A stretch of DNA of 5,145 bases from an uncultured Caryophanales bacterium (GTDB lineage: Bacteria > Bacillota_I > Bacilli_A > RF39 > UBA660): positions 1 through 5,145 of the forward strand of contig CAMKQS010000081.1 in assembly GCA_946414975.1 (NCBI GenBank), given 5' to 3'. The position numbers were made by a program, and so were the translations under genes. Numbering within the stretch: the first letter of the stretch is position 1; each line of letters opens with the position of its first letter. Positions 673 through 5,145 of the stretch are shown piece by piece. The notes beneath the pieces are model-generated. The model made no database searches. It saw nothing but the letters and a program-made list of their open reading frames with translations, and had not been told where the DNA came from.

Positions 673-1665
673 ATGTTAGTAATGACCAAGGCAATACTTG
701 CACTTATGATTGGCTTTATTATTTCAGTAGTAATAGGGTTAGTTACCATACCAATTTTAAAGAAGACTAAAATAAAACAAGTTGAAAGTACTTATTTAAG
801 CAAAAAGCATAAAGAAAAATCCGGGACTCCTACTATGGGAGGAATTATATTTATTGCATCAACTATAATAACAATGCTTTTATTTATAATTTTTGGTAAA
901 GTTAAAGTATCAACAAATTTACTTATTGTACTATTTATATTTTTGTCTTATGCTTTAATAGGATTTATAGATGATTTTCTGATAATAAAAAGAAAAAATA
1001 ATATAGGTCTTACAGAAATCCAAAAATTATCACTGCAAGTTATAGTAGCTTTAATATTTTTCTATGTCTATATGCATAGTGGAGCTAATGCTTCATTAGA
1101 AATACATACACTTGGAATTAATATTAATATGGGCTGGTTCTATGGAATATTTATTTTGTTTATGTTAGTTGCAAGTAGTAATGCAGTTAATATTACTGAT
1201 GGACTTGATGGACTTGCAGCAGGACTTTCAGTACTTGCTTATTTAGCATTTGCTCTTATATCTTGGAATACATTTGCAATTACTGGTACAGAAGATATTG
1301 CTATATTTATATTTGTACTTGTAGGAAGTTTAATTGGATTTTTGGTATTCAATACTCATCCAGCTAAAGTATTTATGGGAGATACAGGTTCACTTGCCCT
1401 TGGTGCGACACTTGCATCAATTGCAATCATAACAAAACATGAAATTACATTTATCATAGTAATGCTTGTATTTATATTTGAAACATTAGTATGTTTAATT
1501 CAAATTGTTTCAATGGTATTTTTCCACAAGAAAGTATTTCTTATGACACCATACCATCATCATTTAGAAAAAATTGGATGGAAAGAAACAGATATTGTAA
1601 AAGTATTTTGGTTTGTAGGATTAATACTTAGTATGAGCGCAATTATATTTGGAGTATGGTTATAA
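673..1665 (+). CDS. mraY: MraY, phospho-N-acetylmuramoyl-pentapeptide-transferase
   Basis: This integral membrane enzyme transfers phospho-MurNAc-pentapeptide from UDP to undecaprenyl phosphate, giving lipid I (EC 2.7.8.13). At 330 aa it is full length for a Gram-positive MraY (about 320-330 aa). The family motifs are all present: MGG at 55-57, the Asp pair at 100-101 (GFIDDF), N170 and N173 with TDGLDG at 175-180, FMGDTGS at 234-240, and the HHH loop at 295-297 (PYHHHLEK). Some ten hydrophobic segments spread over the protein fit the ten-helix fold. The start is set by AGGAGGG 6 nt upstream. It follows murE by 11 nt and is the next dcw gene, as in the Bacillus order murE-mraY-murD. Here murD does not follow: a terminator and a bacteriocin operon do. 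All catalytic motifs are intact, so function is expected to be normal. Confidence 0.98.
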   Translation: MLVMTKAILALMIGFIISVVIGLVTIPILKKTKIKQVESTYLSKKHKEKSGTPTMGGIIFIASTIITMLLFIIFGKVKVSTNLLIVLFIFLSYALIGFIDDFLIIKRKNNIGLTEIQKLSLQVIVALIFFYVYMHSGANASLEIHTLGININMGWFYGIFILFMLVASSNAVNITDGLDGLAAGLSVLAYLAFALISWNTFAITGTEDIAIFIFVLVGSLIGFLVFNTHPAKVFMGDTGSLALGATLASIAIITKHEITFIIVMLVFIFETLVCLIQIVSMVFFHKKVFLMTPYHHHLEKIGWKETDIVKVFWFVGLILSMSAIIFGVWL

Positions 1666-1698
1666 AAATTAAGAATTTCTTAATTTTTTTTTGTTTTT
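1665..1698 (+). terminator. Rho-independent terminator after mraY
   Basis: The arms AAAATTAAG (1665-1673) and CTTAATTTT (1679-1687) form a 9-bp stem with a 5-nt loop. They are followed by T's that begin within the right arm and run to 1692, then G and five more T's. The stem has only one G-C pair, so it is a weak hairpin, but the long T-tract and its position directly at the mraY stop support it. It would separate mraY from the bacteriocin operon. The remaining gap up to 1737 shows no convincing promoter: TATTAT at 1727-1732 could be a -10 but lacks a good -35. Confidence 0.75.
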
Positions 1699-1750: not shown

Positions 1751-3823
1751 ATGCGATATCCTTTTGTAAAACAAGAAGGACAAATGGAATGTGGAGTTGC
1801 ATGTATATTAATGCTTATTAAGTATTATAACGGTTATATAAGTACTAATAAACTTAAAATAATGACTAAAACAACAAAGTGCGGAACAACTGTATTTAAT
1901 ATGGTTAAAGCATTAAGAGAAATAGGATTTAGTGCAGATGGTGTTGAATGTGATTTTAATACATTACTTAAAAATAATAATATGATGCCCTGTATATGCC
2001 ATGTAATAATTAATAAATCATATAACCATTTTGTAGTACTATACAAGATTAATAATAATAATATAGTAATTGCTGATCCTGCATTAGGTATTAAAAAACT
2101 TTCATTTAGTGAATTTAAAAAAATATATAATAATATCTTAATAATTGCAAAACCAAATAAAATAATTCCTAATATAAGTGATAATAAAAATTATAATCTC
2201 TTTAAGATAATTAAAAAAAATAAAAATATAATAATATTAGTAATTTTATATTCATTACTTATAACTTTCTTGTCAATAACAAATTCATTTTATTTTGGAA
2301 AATTAATAGATAGCATATCTTATAAGTCCTTTGATTTTACTAGTATTATCTTTATCTTCTTCTTTATTATTAAGATAATAAGTCTACTATTTTTTTTCTT
2401 CAGAAATAAATTATATTTTATTTTAAATAAAAGATTTGATATTGAATTTACAAACGACATATTTTCAAGTATCTTATCTCTTCCTTACCAACATTATAAA
2501 AATTATACTACTGGTGATATTTTTTATAGAATAAATGATGCATCAATAATTAAGGATTCTATAAGTAAATTCTTTATTGATATGGCATCAAGTATTCCTA
2601 TTGTTATATCAAGTTTAATAATTCTCTTTATAATTAATAAATATTTAAGCTTTATTTGTATCAGTATTATATTTGCAATCTTTATTTTTTCTTTAGCGTG
2701 TAAAAAAATATTATCCCCTCTATTAAACAAATTAAAAAGATTAAAGTCTATAGATACTAGCATGATGATTGATACAATTAATTCATATGAAACAGTTAAG
2801 GGAATAAACATTAAAAATGTTATTAATAATAGAATTAATAATAAACATATAGAATATTTAAATTTTAATAAATACTTTTCTAATTTATTAAATATAAGAG
2901 ATTTAATATTAAAAATATTAACAGACTTAGGAATAATAATAATTCAGTATTTAGGTATTCTTTTAGTTATTGATAATAAAATAAGTATAAGTACTTTAGT
3001 CACATATAACACCATTCTAGGCTTTTTATTTACCTCATTTGCAAGTATAACTGAATGTATATCTACATATACTGATTTTAAAATTTCTTTAAAAAGAATC
3101 GATAATATTATGTATAAATATAAAGATAATGGCTTTCTAAGTAAATTTAATAATGGAGATATACTATATAATAATTTTTCTTTTTCTTTTGATGATATTA
3201 ACTATTGTATAAAAAATGTAAATTTAAAGATTAATAAAAGTGAAAGATTAGTCGTCATTGGTAAAAGTGGATCAGGAAAATCAACTCTATTTAAAGTATT
3301 AAAAGGATACTATAATATAGATTATGATTCTATTACAATTAATAATATTGATATAAAAAATTATAAGAATAATATTTTATGTAATAAAATTCTCTATATA
3401 AATCAAAATGAAATATTATATAATGATACACTTATTAATAATATATTAATTGATAATTGTAGTGAAGAAAAATTAGTTGATATATGTAATATATGTTCTA
3501 TTAATGACATAATAAAAAATAATAATTTAGGTTTTAATATGATGATAGAAGAAAATGGATTTAACTTATCAGGTGGACAGAGACAGAGAATAGTAATGGC
3601 AAGATCATTAATAAAAGATTTTGATATTTTAATTATTGATGAGGCATTAAATCAGTTAGATATTTATTCAGAGAAAAAAATATTAAATAGTATTTTTAAT
3701 TATTATCCCAGCAAGACTATAATATTTATAACTCATAGATTAAATAATTGTAATATGTTTAATCATTTAATTGAAATGAAAGAAGGAATGATTATAAAAG
3801 ATGAATATATCAAAAATAGATGA
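1751..3823 (+). CDS. Peptidase-containing ABC transporter (C39 protease + permease + ATPase) for double-glycine peptides
   Basis: This 690-aa membrane protein is expected to cut leader peptides after Gly-Gly and export the mature peptides using ATP. Residues 1-135 form a C39 peptidase: Q8 (oxyanion hole), C14 in ECGVAC, H93 in NHFVVLY and D109 in ADPALG. The Q-C, C-H and C-D spacings of 6, 79 and 95 equal those recalled for streptococcal ComA (Q11, C17, H96, D112). Residues about 155-435 hold the hydrophobic permease segments. The C-terminal ATPase has Walker A GKSGSGKST (504-512), Q-loop Q552, signature LSGGQ (606-610), Walker B ILIIDE (626-631), D-loop NQLD (634-637) and H662. All catalytic residues are present, so it looks functional. 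Length is typical (about 700 aa). It is very rich in Asn, Ile and Lys and visibly more AT-rich than mraY, which may hint at separate ancestry. Its last 23 bp overlap the next gene. The natural substrates are the two GG-leader peptides encoded downstream. Confidence 0.96.
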   Translation: MRYPFVKQEGQMECGVACILMLIKYYNGYISTNKLKIMTKTTKCGTTVFNMVKALREIGFSADGVECDFNTLLKNNNMMPCICHVIINKSYNHFVVLYKINNNNIVIADPALGIKKLSFSEFKKIYNNILIIAKPNKIIPNISDNKNYNLFKIIKKNKNIIILVILYSLLITFLSITNSFYFGKLIDSISYKSFDFTSIIFIFFFIIKIISLLFFFFRNKLYFILNKRFDIEFTNDIFSSILSLPYQHYKNYTTGDIFYRINDASIIKDSISKFFIDMASSIPIVISSLIILFIINKYLSFICISIIFAIFIFSLACKKILSPLLNKLKRLKSIDTSMMIDTINSYETVKGINIKNVINNRINNKHIEYLNFNKYFSNLLNIRDLILKILTDLGIIIIQYLGILLVIDNKISISTLVTYNTILGFLFTSFASITECISTYTDFKISLKRIDNIMYKYKDNGFLSKFNNGDILYNNFSFSFDDINYCIKNVNLKINKSERLVVIGKSGSGKSTLFKVLKGYYNIDYDSITINNIDIKNYKNNILCNKILYINQNEILYNDTLINNILIDNCSEEKLVDICNICSINDIIKNNNLGFNMMIEENGFNLSGGQRQRIVMARSLIKDFDILIIDEALNQLDIYSEKKILNSIFNYYPSKTIIFITHRLNNCNMFNHLIEMKEGMIIKDEYIKNR

Positions 3824-4208
3824 TTCACGAGTTTATAATTTAAATAATAAAATTGATTTAAAAAAATACTATATTTTATTAATAATAACTATACTATTCT
3901 TTGTTTTTATAATTATATATCCATATCAAAATATTTCTACATATAAGCTAATTGTTGATAATTCATATAAATTAATTGTTGATGATAATTTTTTTCCTAT
4001 AAAAAATAATTATTTATATATAAATAATAAAAAGTATAATTATAATGTTGCAGAAATAAGTGAACAAAAAATTATAGATAATAAAATATATTATGAACTT
4101 AAAATAGATATTAACTTAAAAGTAGATACTAATATTATTCCGGTTATTATAAAAAGAGGAAAAACTACTTTATTTAATAAGTTTGTAAATAATTTGAAAG
4201 GGTGGTAG
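3801..4208 (+). CDS. Small single-pass membrane protein, probable truncated HlyD-type accessory factor of the exporter
   Basis: This 135-aa protein has a short charged N-terminus (1-21), one strong membrane helix (about 22-41) and a roughly 90-residue outer part rich in alternating hydrophobic and polar residues, suggesting beta strands. That layout is the N-in, C-out form of HlyD/MesE-type membrane-fusion proteins that work with C39 transporters. The C-terminal stretch PVIIKRGKTTLFNKF (114-128) resembles the end of such proteins, where a basic Gly-Lys turn precedes a short tail. It lacks the long coiled-coil middle; normal family members have about 400-470 aa. The start at ATG 3801 overlaps the transporter by 23 bp, with AAGGA 13 nt upstream, a rather long spacing. 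It contains a 24-bp tandem duplication encoding YKLIVD twice. The alternative is a bacteriocin immunity protein, since no other candidate is present. The reading frame is secure, the role is inferred. Confidence 0.8.
   Translation: MNISKIDDSRVYNLNNKIDLKKYYILLIITILFFVFIIIYPYQNISTYKLIVDNSYKLIVDDNFFPIKNNYLYINNKKYNYNVAEISEQKIIDNKIYYELKIDINLKVDTNIIPVIIKRGKTTLFNKFVNNLKGW
3940..3987 (+). repeat. 24-bp tandem duplication within the accessory-protein gene
   Basis: Two adjacent 24-bp units (3940-3963 and 3964-3987) agree at 20 of 24 positions and both begin CATATAA and contain TAATTGTTGAT. They are in frame and give YKLIVD at residues 48-53 and again at 56-61, directly after the membrane helix. A recent in-frame duplication is the simplest reading. 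Confidence 0.75.
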
Positions 4209-4210
4209 TA

Positions 4211-4351
4211 ATGCATAAACTAAATGATAATGAAATGATGAATATAAATGGTGGAAGTGTAAGTGCCGGTACTATTTTTTTAATTGCTGCAGGAGTTACA
4301 CTGGTTGCAGGAATAATTGATGGCATAATAAGACCACTAAGGTGTAATTAA
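4211..4351 (+). CDS. Double-glycine-leader bacteriocin-like peptide, 46 aa (peptide 1)
   Basis: The 15-residue leader MHKLNDNEMMNINGG fits the C39-transporter leader consensus: L at -12, E at -8, hydrophobic M at -7, I at -4 and GG at -2/-1. Cleavage would release a 31-residue core beginning SVSAG. The core is strongly hydrophobic from residue 21 to 40, contains GIIDG (34-38, a GxxxG helix-packing motif) and ends with a basic tail, RPLRCN, holding its only Cys. GGGTGG (4200-4205) precedes the ATG by 5 nt, and the gene starts 2 nt after the accessory gene stop. Small size, leader and cassette setting support a bacteriocin or signalling peptide; one Cys and no modifying enzymes nearby argue against a lantibiotic. 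I do not recognise the core as a named bacteriocin. It is likely one half of a two-peptide bacteriocin with the next gene. Confidence 0.9.
   Translation: MHKLNDNEMMNINGGSVSAGTIFLIAAGVTLVAGIIDGIIRPLRCN
4339..4344 (+). promoter_or_regulatory. Ribosome-binding site of peptide 2 inside the end of peptide 1
   Basis: AAGGTG lies 6 nt before ATG 4351 and falls within the last codons of peptide 1. With the TAATG stop-start overlap it suggests coupled translation, a usual way to keep two partner peptides in balance. Confidence 0.65.
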
Positions 4352-4521
4352 TGAAAAAGTTAAGTGATATAGAGATGCAAAAAATTGAAGGAGGAAATAG
4401 TTATATAACAGCTGCATTTATATCTTCAATAACTAGGGCAGGTAATTGCATTTTAGATGTAGGTAGAAGTATAGGAAGTGCAATTAGAAGAATATATGAA
4501 AACGATATTTGTTCACTTTAA
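4351..4521 (+). CDS. Double-glycine-leader bacteriocin-like peptide, 56 aa (peptide 2)
   Basis: The leader MKKLSDIEMQKIEGG is again 15 residues and shares 9 positions with the peptide 1 leader (M1, K3, L4, D6, E8, M9, I12, G14, G15), so both should be processed by the same C39 domain. The 41-residue core begins NSYITAAF, has a mixed amphipathic character and contains GRSIG (38-42, GxxxG) followed by AIRRIYENDICSL. Cys33 and Cys54 could form a disulfide. The basic patches (R29, R39, R46, R47) fit a membrane-active cationic peptide. The ATG overlaps the peptide 1 stop by one base, and a terminator begins right at its own stop, so it is the last gene of the operon. Proposed role: partner of peptide 1 in a class IIb-like bacteriocin. 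Name and target unknown. Confidence 0.9.
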   Translation: MKKLSDIEMQKIEGGNSYITAAFISSITRAGNCILDVGRSIGSAIRRIYENDICSL

Positions 4522-4548
4522 AAAAGGTACTAAGTATCTTTTTTTTTT
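4521..4548 (+). terminator. Rho-independent terminator of the bacteriocin operon
   Basis: The arms AAAAAGGTAC (4521-4530) and GTATCTTTTT (4534-4543) pair over 10 bp with one G-U wobble and a 3-nt loop. T's run from 4539 to 4548. It begins at the last base of the peptide 2 stop codon. The flanking A and T runs could also let it act on the other strand. Confidence 0.85.
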
Positions 4549-4685: not shown

Positions 4686-5145
4686 ATGACTAAGGTTAAA
4701 AAACGTGGTTTTACGTTGATTGAATTAATAGCTGTATTAGTTATTATGGCAATCATTGCACTTATCGTAACACCACTAGTAATGTCTATAATTAAAAAGG
4801 CAAAAATAAGTGCGAGAAAAAGAAGTGTAGATGCATATGGAAGATCAGTAGAGTTAGCTATTGCATCACATTTACTAGATACAGGTACATTTCCAACAAA
4901 TGAAGAGTTACCAAATCTACAAATTGAATATAGTGGTTCTACTGTAGTTTGTAATGTAATGGCTATGAAAGAAAATGGTGGATTATACTTATCTGAATGT
5001 AAGGTAAATAATGTAGATGTTAAAGATAATTCTACTGATGATGGATGGTATCATTATGGTACTAGAGATTTAACAAATGAGGAATATGTTGATATGTATG
5101 GAGATGCCTTAAAGACTGCATCACTTGCATATTTTAATACAAATG
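4686..5145 (+). CDS. Type IV prepilin / pilin-like protein, N-terminal part (3' end outside window)
   Basis: The first 153 codons of a secreted pilus subunit are present and the frame is still open at the window end. MTKVKKRG is a short basic leader cut by prepilin peptidase between G8 and F9. The mature protein begins FTLIEL with Glu at mature position 5 (E13) and a hydrophobic helix to about residue 36. P30 equals mature Pro22, conserved in type IVa pilins. After the helix come a basic stretch (K37-R46), then a soluble domain with C89 and C105 that may form a disulfide, and the segment SVELAIASHLL (54-64), typical of low-GC Gram-positive pilins. AAGGA (4671-4675) lies 10 nt before the ATG. 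It could be a major pilin or a minor, competence-type pseudopilin; none of the assembly genes are in view. Its own promoter separates it from the bacteriocin operon. Confidence 0.93.
   Translation, partial: MTKVKKRGFTLIELIAVLVIMAIIALIVTPLVMSIIKKAKISARKRSVDAYGRSVELAIASHLLDTGTFPTNEELPNLQIEYSGSTVVCNVMAMKENGGLYLSECKVNNVDVKDNSTDDGWYHYGTRDLTNEEYVDMYGDALKTASLAYFNTN

Follow-up and report, generated by a model that had tools for sequence, protein, structure and literature searches.

A two-peptide, class IIb-like cassette with its own C39 exporter, apparently standard equipment in an order of small-genome bacteria

A 5,145-nucleotide (nt) stretch of contig CAMKQS010000081.1, from an uncultured Caryophanales bacterium (hereafter the window), carries a compact cassette encoding a C39 peptidase-ATP-binding cassette (ABC) exporter, a 135-amino-acid (aa) membrane protein and two short precursors with double-glycine (GG) leaders. 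Judging from the sequences, the two peptides are probably (we put the probability at roughly 0.58) a class IIb-like antimicrobial or permeabilising pair, vertically inherited as core equipment of an order and used on neighbours by nutrient-dependent bacteria with small genomes. The reading as a pair is based on the C39 exporter, the adjacent GG-leader precursors, the GxxxG motif in both cores and the joint retention of the two genes. The order is most likely RF39, as genome size and the database names 'Bacilli' and 'Mollicutes bacterium' among relatives suggest, and its genomes are represented by assemblies of about 0.4-1.9 Mb. What is new here is that the pair is near-universal in the whole order, so that it seems to be standard equipment and not an optional weapon. 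The labels peptide 1, peptide 2, ACC (the 135-aa protein) and third gene were coined in this analysis; L numbers designate fetched loci and G numbers genomes.

The cassette and its peptides

The exporter, ACC, peptide 1 and peptide 2 follow one another on the plus strand, and a hairpin with a T-run closes the cassette (Table 1). A preliminary description of this DNA had placed a four-gene cassette at 1751-4521, and both the coordinates and the gene content were confirmed by open reading frame (ORF) and domain searches. The tight packing that it reported is also real: the ACC ORF overlaps the end of the exporter gene by 23 nt, the ATG of peptide 1 lies 2 nt past the end of the ACC gene, and the peptide 2 ORF overlaps that of peptide 1 by 1 nt. 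An in-frame GTG is present at 4202, upstream of the peptide 1 ATG. The closing terminator was likewise found, though it is AT-rich; the hairpin has an 11-bp stem, a 3-nt loop and a folding energy of -7.2 kcal/mol, 3 of 200 shuffled sequences folded equally well, and a consensus terminator scan of the window did not list it. The closest relative, contig L001 (genome G001), is collinear with the window from MurE through peptide 2, with 84% identity in the exporter and 84% in ACC. As the cassette is collinear in L001 and both peptides are matched across the genomes of the family, its arrangement goes beyond chance.

Table 1. Features of the cassette and its terminators in the window
Feature	Position	Strand	Remarks
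Terminator after mraY, AT-rich	1664..1692	+	-6.4 kcal/mol; equalled by 1 of 200 shuffles
C39 peptidase-ABC exporter, 690 aa	1751..3823	+	Pfam PF03412, PF00664, PF00005
ACC, 135 aa, one predicted N-terminal membrane helix and putative beta-barrel	3801..4208	+	structure model
Peptide 1 precursor, 46 aa	4211..4351	+	15-aa GG leader 4211-4255; 31-aa hydrophobic core 4256-4348
Peptide 1 GxxxG (GIIDG), residues G34-G38	4310..4324	+	
Peptide 1 Cys45	4343..4345	+	sole Cys of peptide 1 in the window
Peptide 2 precursor, 56 aa	4351..4521	+	15-aa GG leader 4351-4395; 41-aa core 4396-4518
Peptide 2 GxxxG (GRSIG), residues G38-G42, then R46-R47	4462..4476	+	
Peptide 2 Cys54	4510..4512	+	second Cys of peptide 2 in the window is C33
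Intrinsic terminator of the cassette, AT-rich	4520..4548	+	overlaps peptide 2 stop codon; same hairpin in L001

Three Pfam domains make up the exporter (Peptidase_C39, E 1.4e-36; ABC_membrane, E 1.1e-29; ABC_tran, E 1.3e-24). It scored 358 bits against TIGR01193, under the cut-off of 523.85, and 320 bits against the Mbov_0121-family peptidase-ABC model NF045998, under the cut-off of 500. The latter match hints at a link with the C39 exporter of mycoplasmas. From its domains, the protein would be expected to cut both peptides after GG and to export them. Together with the leaders and the adjacent ORFs, these domains bear out the description of two paired GG-leader peptides served by a dedicated exporter.

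Peptide 1 lies above the cut-off of the class IIb model TIGR03949 (lactobin A/cerein 7B; 28.3 versus 21.5 bits), and its hydropathy is that of a membrane-spanning helix. Peptide 2 of the window, mildly cationic and with a helix predicted over residues 21-50 (mean predicted local distance difference test score, 78.9), reached no family cut-off in Pfam or NCBIfam, nor did any NCBIfam model match it at E<=0.1. The earlier statement that neither core could be recognised thus holds for peptide 2 and not for peptide 1. When aligned relatives were examined, TIGR03949 was matched by 29 of the 37 peptide 1 sequences (window included) and by 14 of 38 peptide 2 sequences, and the lactococcin G-beta model by 30 of the peptide 1 set (all at E<=0.1), matches that are partly due to the shared leader. 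Sequence searches against solved structures gave best E-values of 0.12 and 0.088, which are not significant. The calculated monoisotopic masses of the window cores in reduced form are 3109.77 Da (peptide 1) and 4432.26 Da (peptide 2). Peptide 2 has 881 database relatives at E<=0.001; among the 120 of these that were listed, there was no Pfam domain and no functional name, and the readable source names were only 'hypothetical protein'.

One criterion for class IIb bacteriocins is a GxxxG or like motif in both peptides (PMC8538875). The cassette resembles the lactococcin G/enterocin 1071 and lactobin A/cerein 7B families of this class in its adjacent, different GG-leader precursors, in a GxxxG motif in each core and in a dedicated C39 ABC exporter. 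It differs from them in that the pair consists of core genes of an order and comes without a standard immunity gene.

Retention of the pair across an order

Profiles built from the first relatives of peptide 2 (A2) and peptide 1 (A3) were run on the family of G001 at E<=0.01. As a result, the peptide 2 profile matched 176 of the 193 genomes and the peptide 1 profile 174. Both profiles matched in 172 genomes and neither in 15; four genomes were matched by the peptide 2 profile only and two by the peptide 1 profile only. These numbers were taken from the genome lists, because all fetched loci had been selected by a match to peptide 2. The preliminary description had named a pair that is not conserved, that accumulates stop codons or of which one peptide occurs alone as grounds for giving up its proposal; we found the opposite, the two peptides being retained together. 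Ribosomal protein S2 was detected in 176 of the same 193 genomes (E<=0.001), so that gaps in the assemblies alone could yield a shortfall as large as that of the peptides. Since S2 was present in 13 of the 15 genomes with neither peptide, true loss of the pair in some of them is also possible.

At the level of the order, 264 of 288 genomes were matched (E<=0.001). A broader profile, A6, gave 7 more positives among 26 genomes that had been negative in the family and order searches, a recheck that left out four further order negatives. In a sample of the class, A6 matched 44 of 296 genomes; 35 of these bear genome handles of the family and order searches, all longer matches among them; the other nine reached at most positions 1-36 of 55. 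In a phylum sample, 23 of 245 genomes matched, 7 from the family and order set and 16 others that reached position 40 at most, the best-reaching being G684 (positions 1-40, E 8.1e-8). No full-length match outside the order was thus found in the class (296) and phylum (245) samples, order membership being read from the genome handle numbers. The nine outsiders of the class sample (L190-L198) contain GG-leader ORFs of other kinds, and their fetched stretches showed no match to the window exporter, except for an ATPase in L198; the stretch of L191 starts only about 1.5 kb upstream. As this inspection covered L190-L198 and left out seven further outsiders of the phylum sample, G684 among them, a distant relative outside the order may exist. 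Four of the loci inspected, from small genomes of other groups, encode 130-aa GG-leader proteins with near-identical N-terminal halves (L190 8039-8431, L191 1470-1862, L192 8366-8758, L193 8114-8506), possibly a second conserved GG-peptide system.

Most known two-peptide bacteriocins come from lactic acid bacteria, in which they are accessory traits. We considered that the cassette might be a common type of class IIb bacteriocin cluster, specific to one species, dispensable and acquired by horizontal transfer. Its general anatomy would agree with such an origin, as would the position of the window cassette beside mraY, which is rare; MraY occurs within the fetched stretch in only 2 of 117 loci with enough sequence. 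The order-wide distribution and the common position described below contradict it, and no plasmid matches and no phage or viral-contig relative (the latter two for peptide 2) were found. We regard this explanation as improbable. By the same searches, covering viral contigs (peptide 2), plasmids (peptides 1 and 2) and phages (peptide 2), a mobile or phage origin was rejected. The proposal of a probable new two-peptide bacteriocin cassette is supported as regards the pair and its exporter, with killing action still putative; the pair is not an isolated system, being near-universal in the order and conserved in sequence.

A constant core in a common genomic position

Gene order was compared in 142 loci, comprising 140 fetched regions (40 plus 100, two of them from one genome), the window and L001. 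A script that sought only peptide 1 upstream of peptide 2 found the adjacent pair in 133 of them. The exporter lies less than 1 kb upstream of peptide 1 in all 133 (130 of 130 among those with at least 2.6 kb upstream). Of the nine exceptions, L063 has the pair at a distance of about 2.8 kb from the exporter, L094 shows a gap of about 700 nt, and both peptides are present in L134 (where peptide 1 was called shortened) and L161. There is no called peptide 1 in L130 and L181, and in L180 the calls were limited to peptide 2 and the third gene. The remaining two, L053 and L186, both belong to G127, in which about 35 kb separate peptide 2 plus the third gene from the exporter plus peptide 1; no other clear case of a split cassette was seen among the loci inspected.

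Downstream of the cassette, an S21-like gene is among the nearest genes in 77 of the 117 loci, accompanied in 62 by a YqeY-like gene; we take these neighbours to be S21 and YqeY by recognition, not by family search. The common S21-like neighbourhood suggests that this position is ancestral and that the cassette descended vertically. A functional link with the mur genes that flank the window cassette was considered and rejected, as MraY (2/117) and MurE-like genes (4/117) are rarely near and the usual neighbour is S21-like. Mapped on a 129-tip tree of the exporter, the gene in the 135-aa slot requires 13 changes and the third gene 22, indicating repeated gain and loss of accessory genes around a core that stays the same.

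Some loci carry additional short genes. In L199 (7878-8451) and L202 (8045-8618) the peptide pair occurs twice in tandem, with shorter cores in the second copy. An extra short GG-leader ORF, possibly a third exported peptide, lies between the 135-aa gene and peptide 1 in L209 (8229-8363), and ORFs of 42-43 aa precede peptide 1 in L071 and L072.

Conserved residues, selection and the cysteines

Residue conservation and co-variation were examined in 127 of the 133 adjacent pairs. In peptide 1, G38 and C45 are invariant (100%), followed by P42 (97%), G34 (96%) and D37 (88%). In peptide 2, G38, G42 and C54 are invariant, followed by R47 (98%) and R46 (92%). The GxxxG motif occurs in 128 of 133 peptide 1 cores and in 133 of 133 peptide 2 cores.

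The ratios of nonsynonymous to synonymous substitution rates (dN/dS) in eight close pairs were 0.02-0.23 for the peptide 2 core, 0.00-0.60 for the peptide 1 core and 0.10-0.41 for the exporter. These pairs were picked by hand, the few codons make single values rough, and some dS values are saturated; the highest peptide 1 value (0.60, on 7 and 4 changes) is that of the window-L001 pair. The ratios indicate that both cores are under purifying selection, and in 6 of the 8 pairs the peptide 2 core lies under the exporter. Distances of peptides 1 and 2 with the exporter partialled out were correlated (r 0.323), a value reached in none of 2,000 permutations. This indicates co-variation of the cores beyond the exporter tree, the permutations ignoring the tree and joint transfer of both peptides apart from the exporter giving the same signal. 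Given their small size and the lack of database names for most of them, one could suppose that the peptides are not real genes, or that they are remnants in decay next to an ABC transporter that still works. Purifying selection, the invariant residues and the 881 relatives of peptide 2 refute this, and we regard its probability as negligible.

Exactly one Cys per core was counted in 111 of the 133 pairs, and two in both cores in a single pair. The script scored 22 pairs as deviating from one plus one; L128, scored 0, is a trimming artefact with the Cys present in the ORF. In L207 the Cys is gone from both partners, and in the second pairs of L199 and L202 it is displaced or, in the second peptide 2 of L202, absent. 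The cores contain 3.45 and 2.73 Cys per 100 aa, versus 0.59 in the last 90 residues of 89 ACC proteins, an enrichment of about fivefold. Most class IIb peptides are without Cys, and those of gallocin A have two each, joined intramolecularly, as described in PMC10100652; the usual single Cys per core here departs from both. In the window, the two Cys of peptide 2 make an internal bond possible. DsbA and VKOR were found in none of 41 genomes and a redoxin above the cut-off in only 5, weakening the case for an enzyme-made disulfide.

A relative of peptide 2 beside the pair

Of the 128 loci in which 250 nt or more of downstream sequence was available, 59 have a short ORF that starts at the end of peptide 2. 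This third gene overlaps peptide 2 by 7-26 nt in 58 of the 59, mostly by 13 nt and hence in another frame, and its product is 36-70 aa long (42-60 aa in 56 of 59). The protein has one hydrophobic stretch, no GG leader and a C-terminal GRxxGT-like segment with a conserved Arg. Comparison with the C-terminal half of peptide 2 by hhalign gave a probability of 95.6 (E 1.1e-8), and separately made alignments gave 94.5 (E 7.7e-8); against peptide 1 the probability was about 0.1. NCBIfam searches with 42 members brought up 11 families, each with one or two members (best E 0.0013) and none convincing. Judged by these profiles, the third protein is a membrane-anchored relative of peptide 2, and it is a candidate immunity protein acting by mimicry. 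The profile had been seeded by position and length, with peptide 2 similarity playing no part, and the counts depend on the seeding loci. Over the 193 genomes it gave 89 matches, many of them cross-hits on peptide 2.

The nearest precedent that we found for a look-alike immunity peptide is the gallocin immunity peptide GIP, which was modelled as resembling its bacteriocin and proposed to act by competition (PMC10100652); here the relation is one of sequence profile, to peptide 2. In size, too, the third protein has parallels. Immunity proteins of two-peptide bacteriocins of 42-55 aa have been described, and CbnZ, that of carnobacteriocin XY, is a 42-aa, single-helix membrane protein, similarly short and with one hydrophobic stretch; the same paper states that the mechanism by which producers are immune to two-peptide bacteriocins 'remains a mystery' (PMC6957408).

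The preliminary description had also noted a small membrane protein. It is present as ACC, and it resembles, on moderate evidence, a stripped-down membrane-fusion protein more than an immunity protein. Its model contains a helix at residues 20-39, seven strands and a helix at 124-134. A Foldseek search with the model found no structure at E<=0.001, and ACC differs from the HlyD/MacA membrane-fusion proteins in having neither the lipoyl domain nor the coiled-coil hairpin. With moderate confidence, we consider ACC a minimal membrane-fusion protein, a secretion accessory. In 90 of the 133 loci (89 by profile), an ORF of 90-220 aa occupies the place between the exporter gene and peptide 1.

Permeabilising pair or resident function

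Taking the above results together, we propose the following mechanism. The exporter would cut both leaders and release the cores, with the 135-aa protein, where present, serving as an extracytoplasmic sleeve. Peptides 1 and 2 would then pair helix-to-helix via their GxxxG motifs in the membrane and make it leaky. Where the third protein is present, it may shield the producer by holding peptide 1 in an inactive pair.

Several observations weigh against this proposal. Bacteriocins usually spread patchily, and the near-universal, slowly changing distribution seen here differs from that; conserved sequence and near-universality are unusual for a weapon of competition. There is no universal immunity candidate: the third gene occurs in 59 of 128 loci, the ORF in the 135-aa slot in 90 of 133, and neither in 29 loci. 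The window itself lacks the third gene, and G001 gives only a weak cross-hit on peptide 2. No regulator, receptor or kinase is among the cassette genes, and the missing regulator counts here as well.

An alternative is that the peptides are not a weapon, and that they form a conserved pair with a role in signalling or in the envelope, such as a pheromone or a component of the producer's own envelope, using bacteriocin-type export. The pair is as widespread as ribosomal protein S2 in the same genomes, it occupies a common genomic place in 77 of 117 loci, the peptide 2 core has a lower dN/dS than the exporter in 6 of 8 pairs, and a universal immunity gene is missing, all of which this alternative would accommodate. 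On the contrary, the cassette has no receptor or kinase, peptide 1 falls inside a class IIb family model, and GxxxG in both cores with a peptide 2 relative in many loci fits a toxin with immunity better. We consider a non-weapon role a serious alternative, although clearly less probable than the permeabilising pair.

A more specific version can be put forward only tentatively. The order may depend on a vertically inherited, non-optional two-peptide system whose two cores form one functional unit dependent on the conserved Cys of each, as a covalent heterodimer or a thiol-controlled pair, with an evolved copy of peptide 2 in the producer's membrane, in about half the loci, capturing peptide 1 as immunity or control by mimicry.

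RF39 bacteria are uncultured, and missing genes for nucleic-acid synthesis have led to speculation on a parasitic or endosymbiotic life (PMC13155120). If our proposal is true, a core permeabilising pair would be a concrete way to gain nutrients from neighbours, and the profile relative of one peptide beside the pair allows immunity by mimicry to be tested directly. Most of these short peptides lack an annotation. The IIBacFinder atlas, with 82,806 predicted gut class II bacteriocin precursors (PMC12648078), may already hold some of them individually. A term search found neither 'bacteriocin' nor 'C39' in the main text of two papers on RF39 genomics (PMC7301438, PMC10868615). Among the titles and abstract openings listed, which covered few subscription papers, there was no description of order-wide core status, of the pattern of one Cys in each peptide or of the adjoining peptide 2 relative.

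Surroundings of the cassette in the window

A family search of the window identified the upstream flank as MurE (partial) and MraY. To judge from the hairpin after mraY, the cassette is probably transcribed as a separate unit, apart from the mur genes. No Rfam match at gathering scores was found in the window. Directly after the cassette lies a type IV pilin- or pseudopilin-like ORF (4686-5144, plus strand) that runs off the end of the window; it carries an N_methyl motif, and its best NCBIfam matches are GspG and ComGC, both under their cut-offs.

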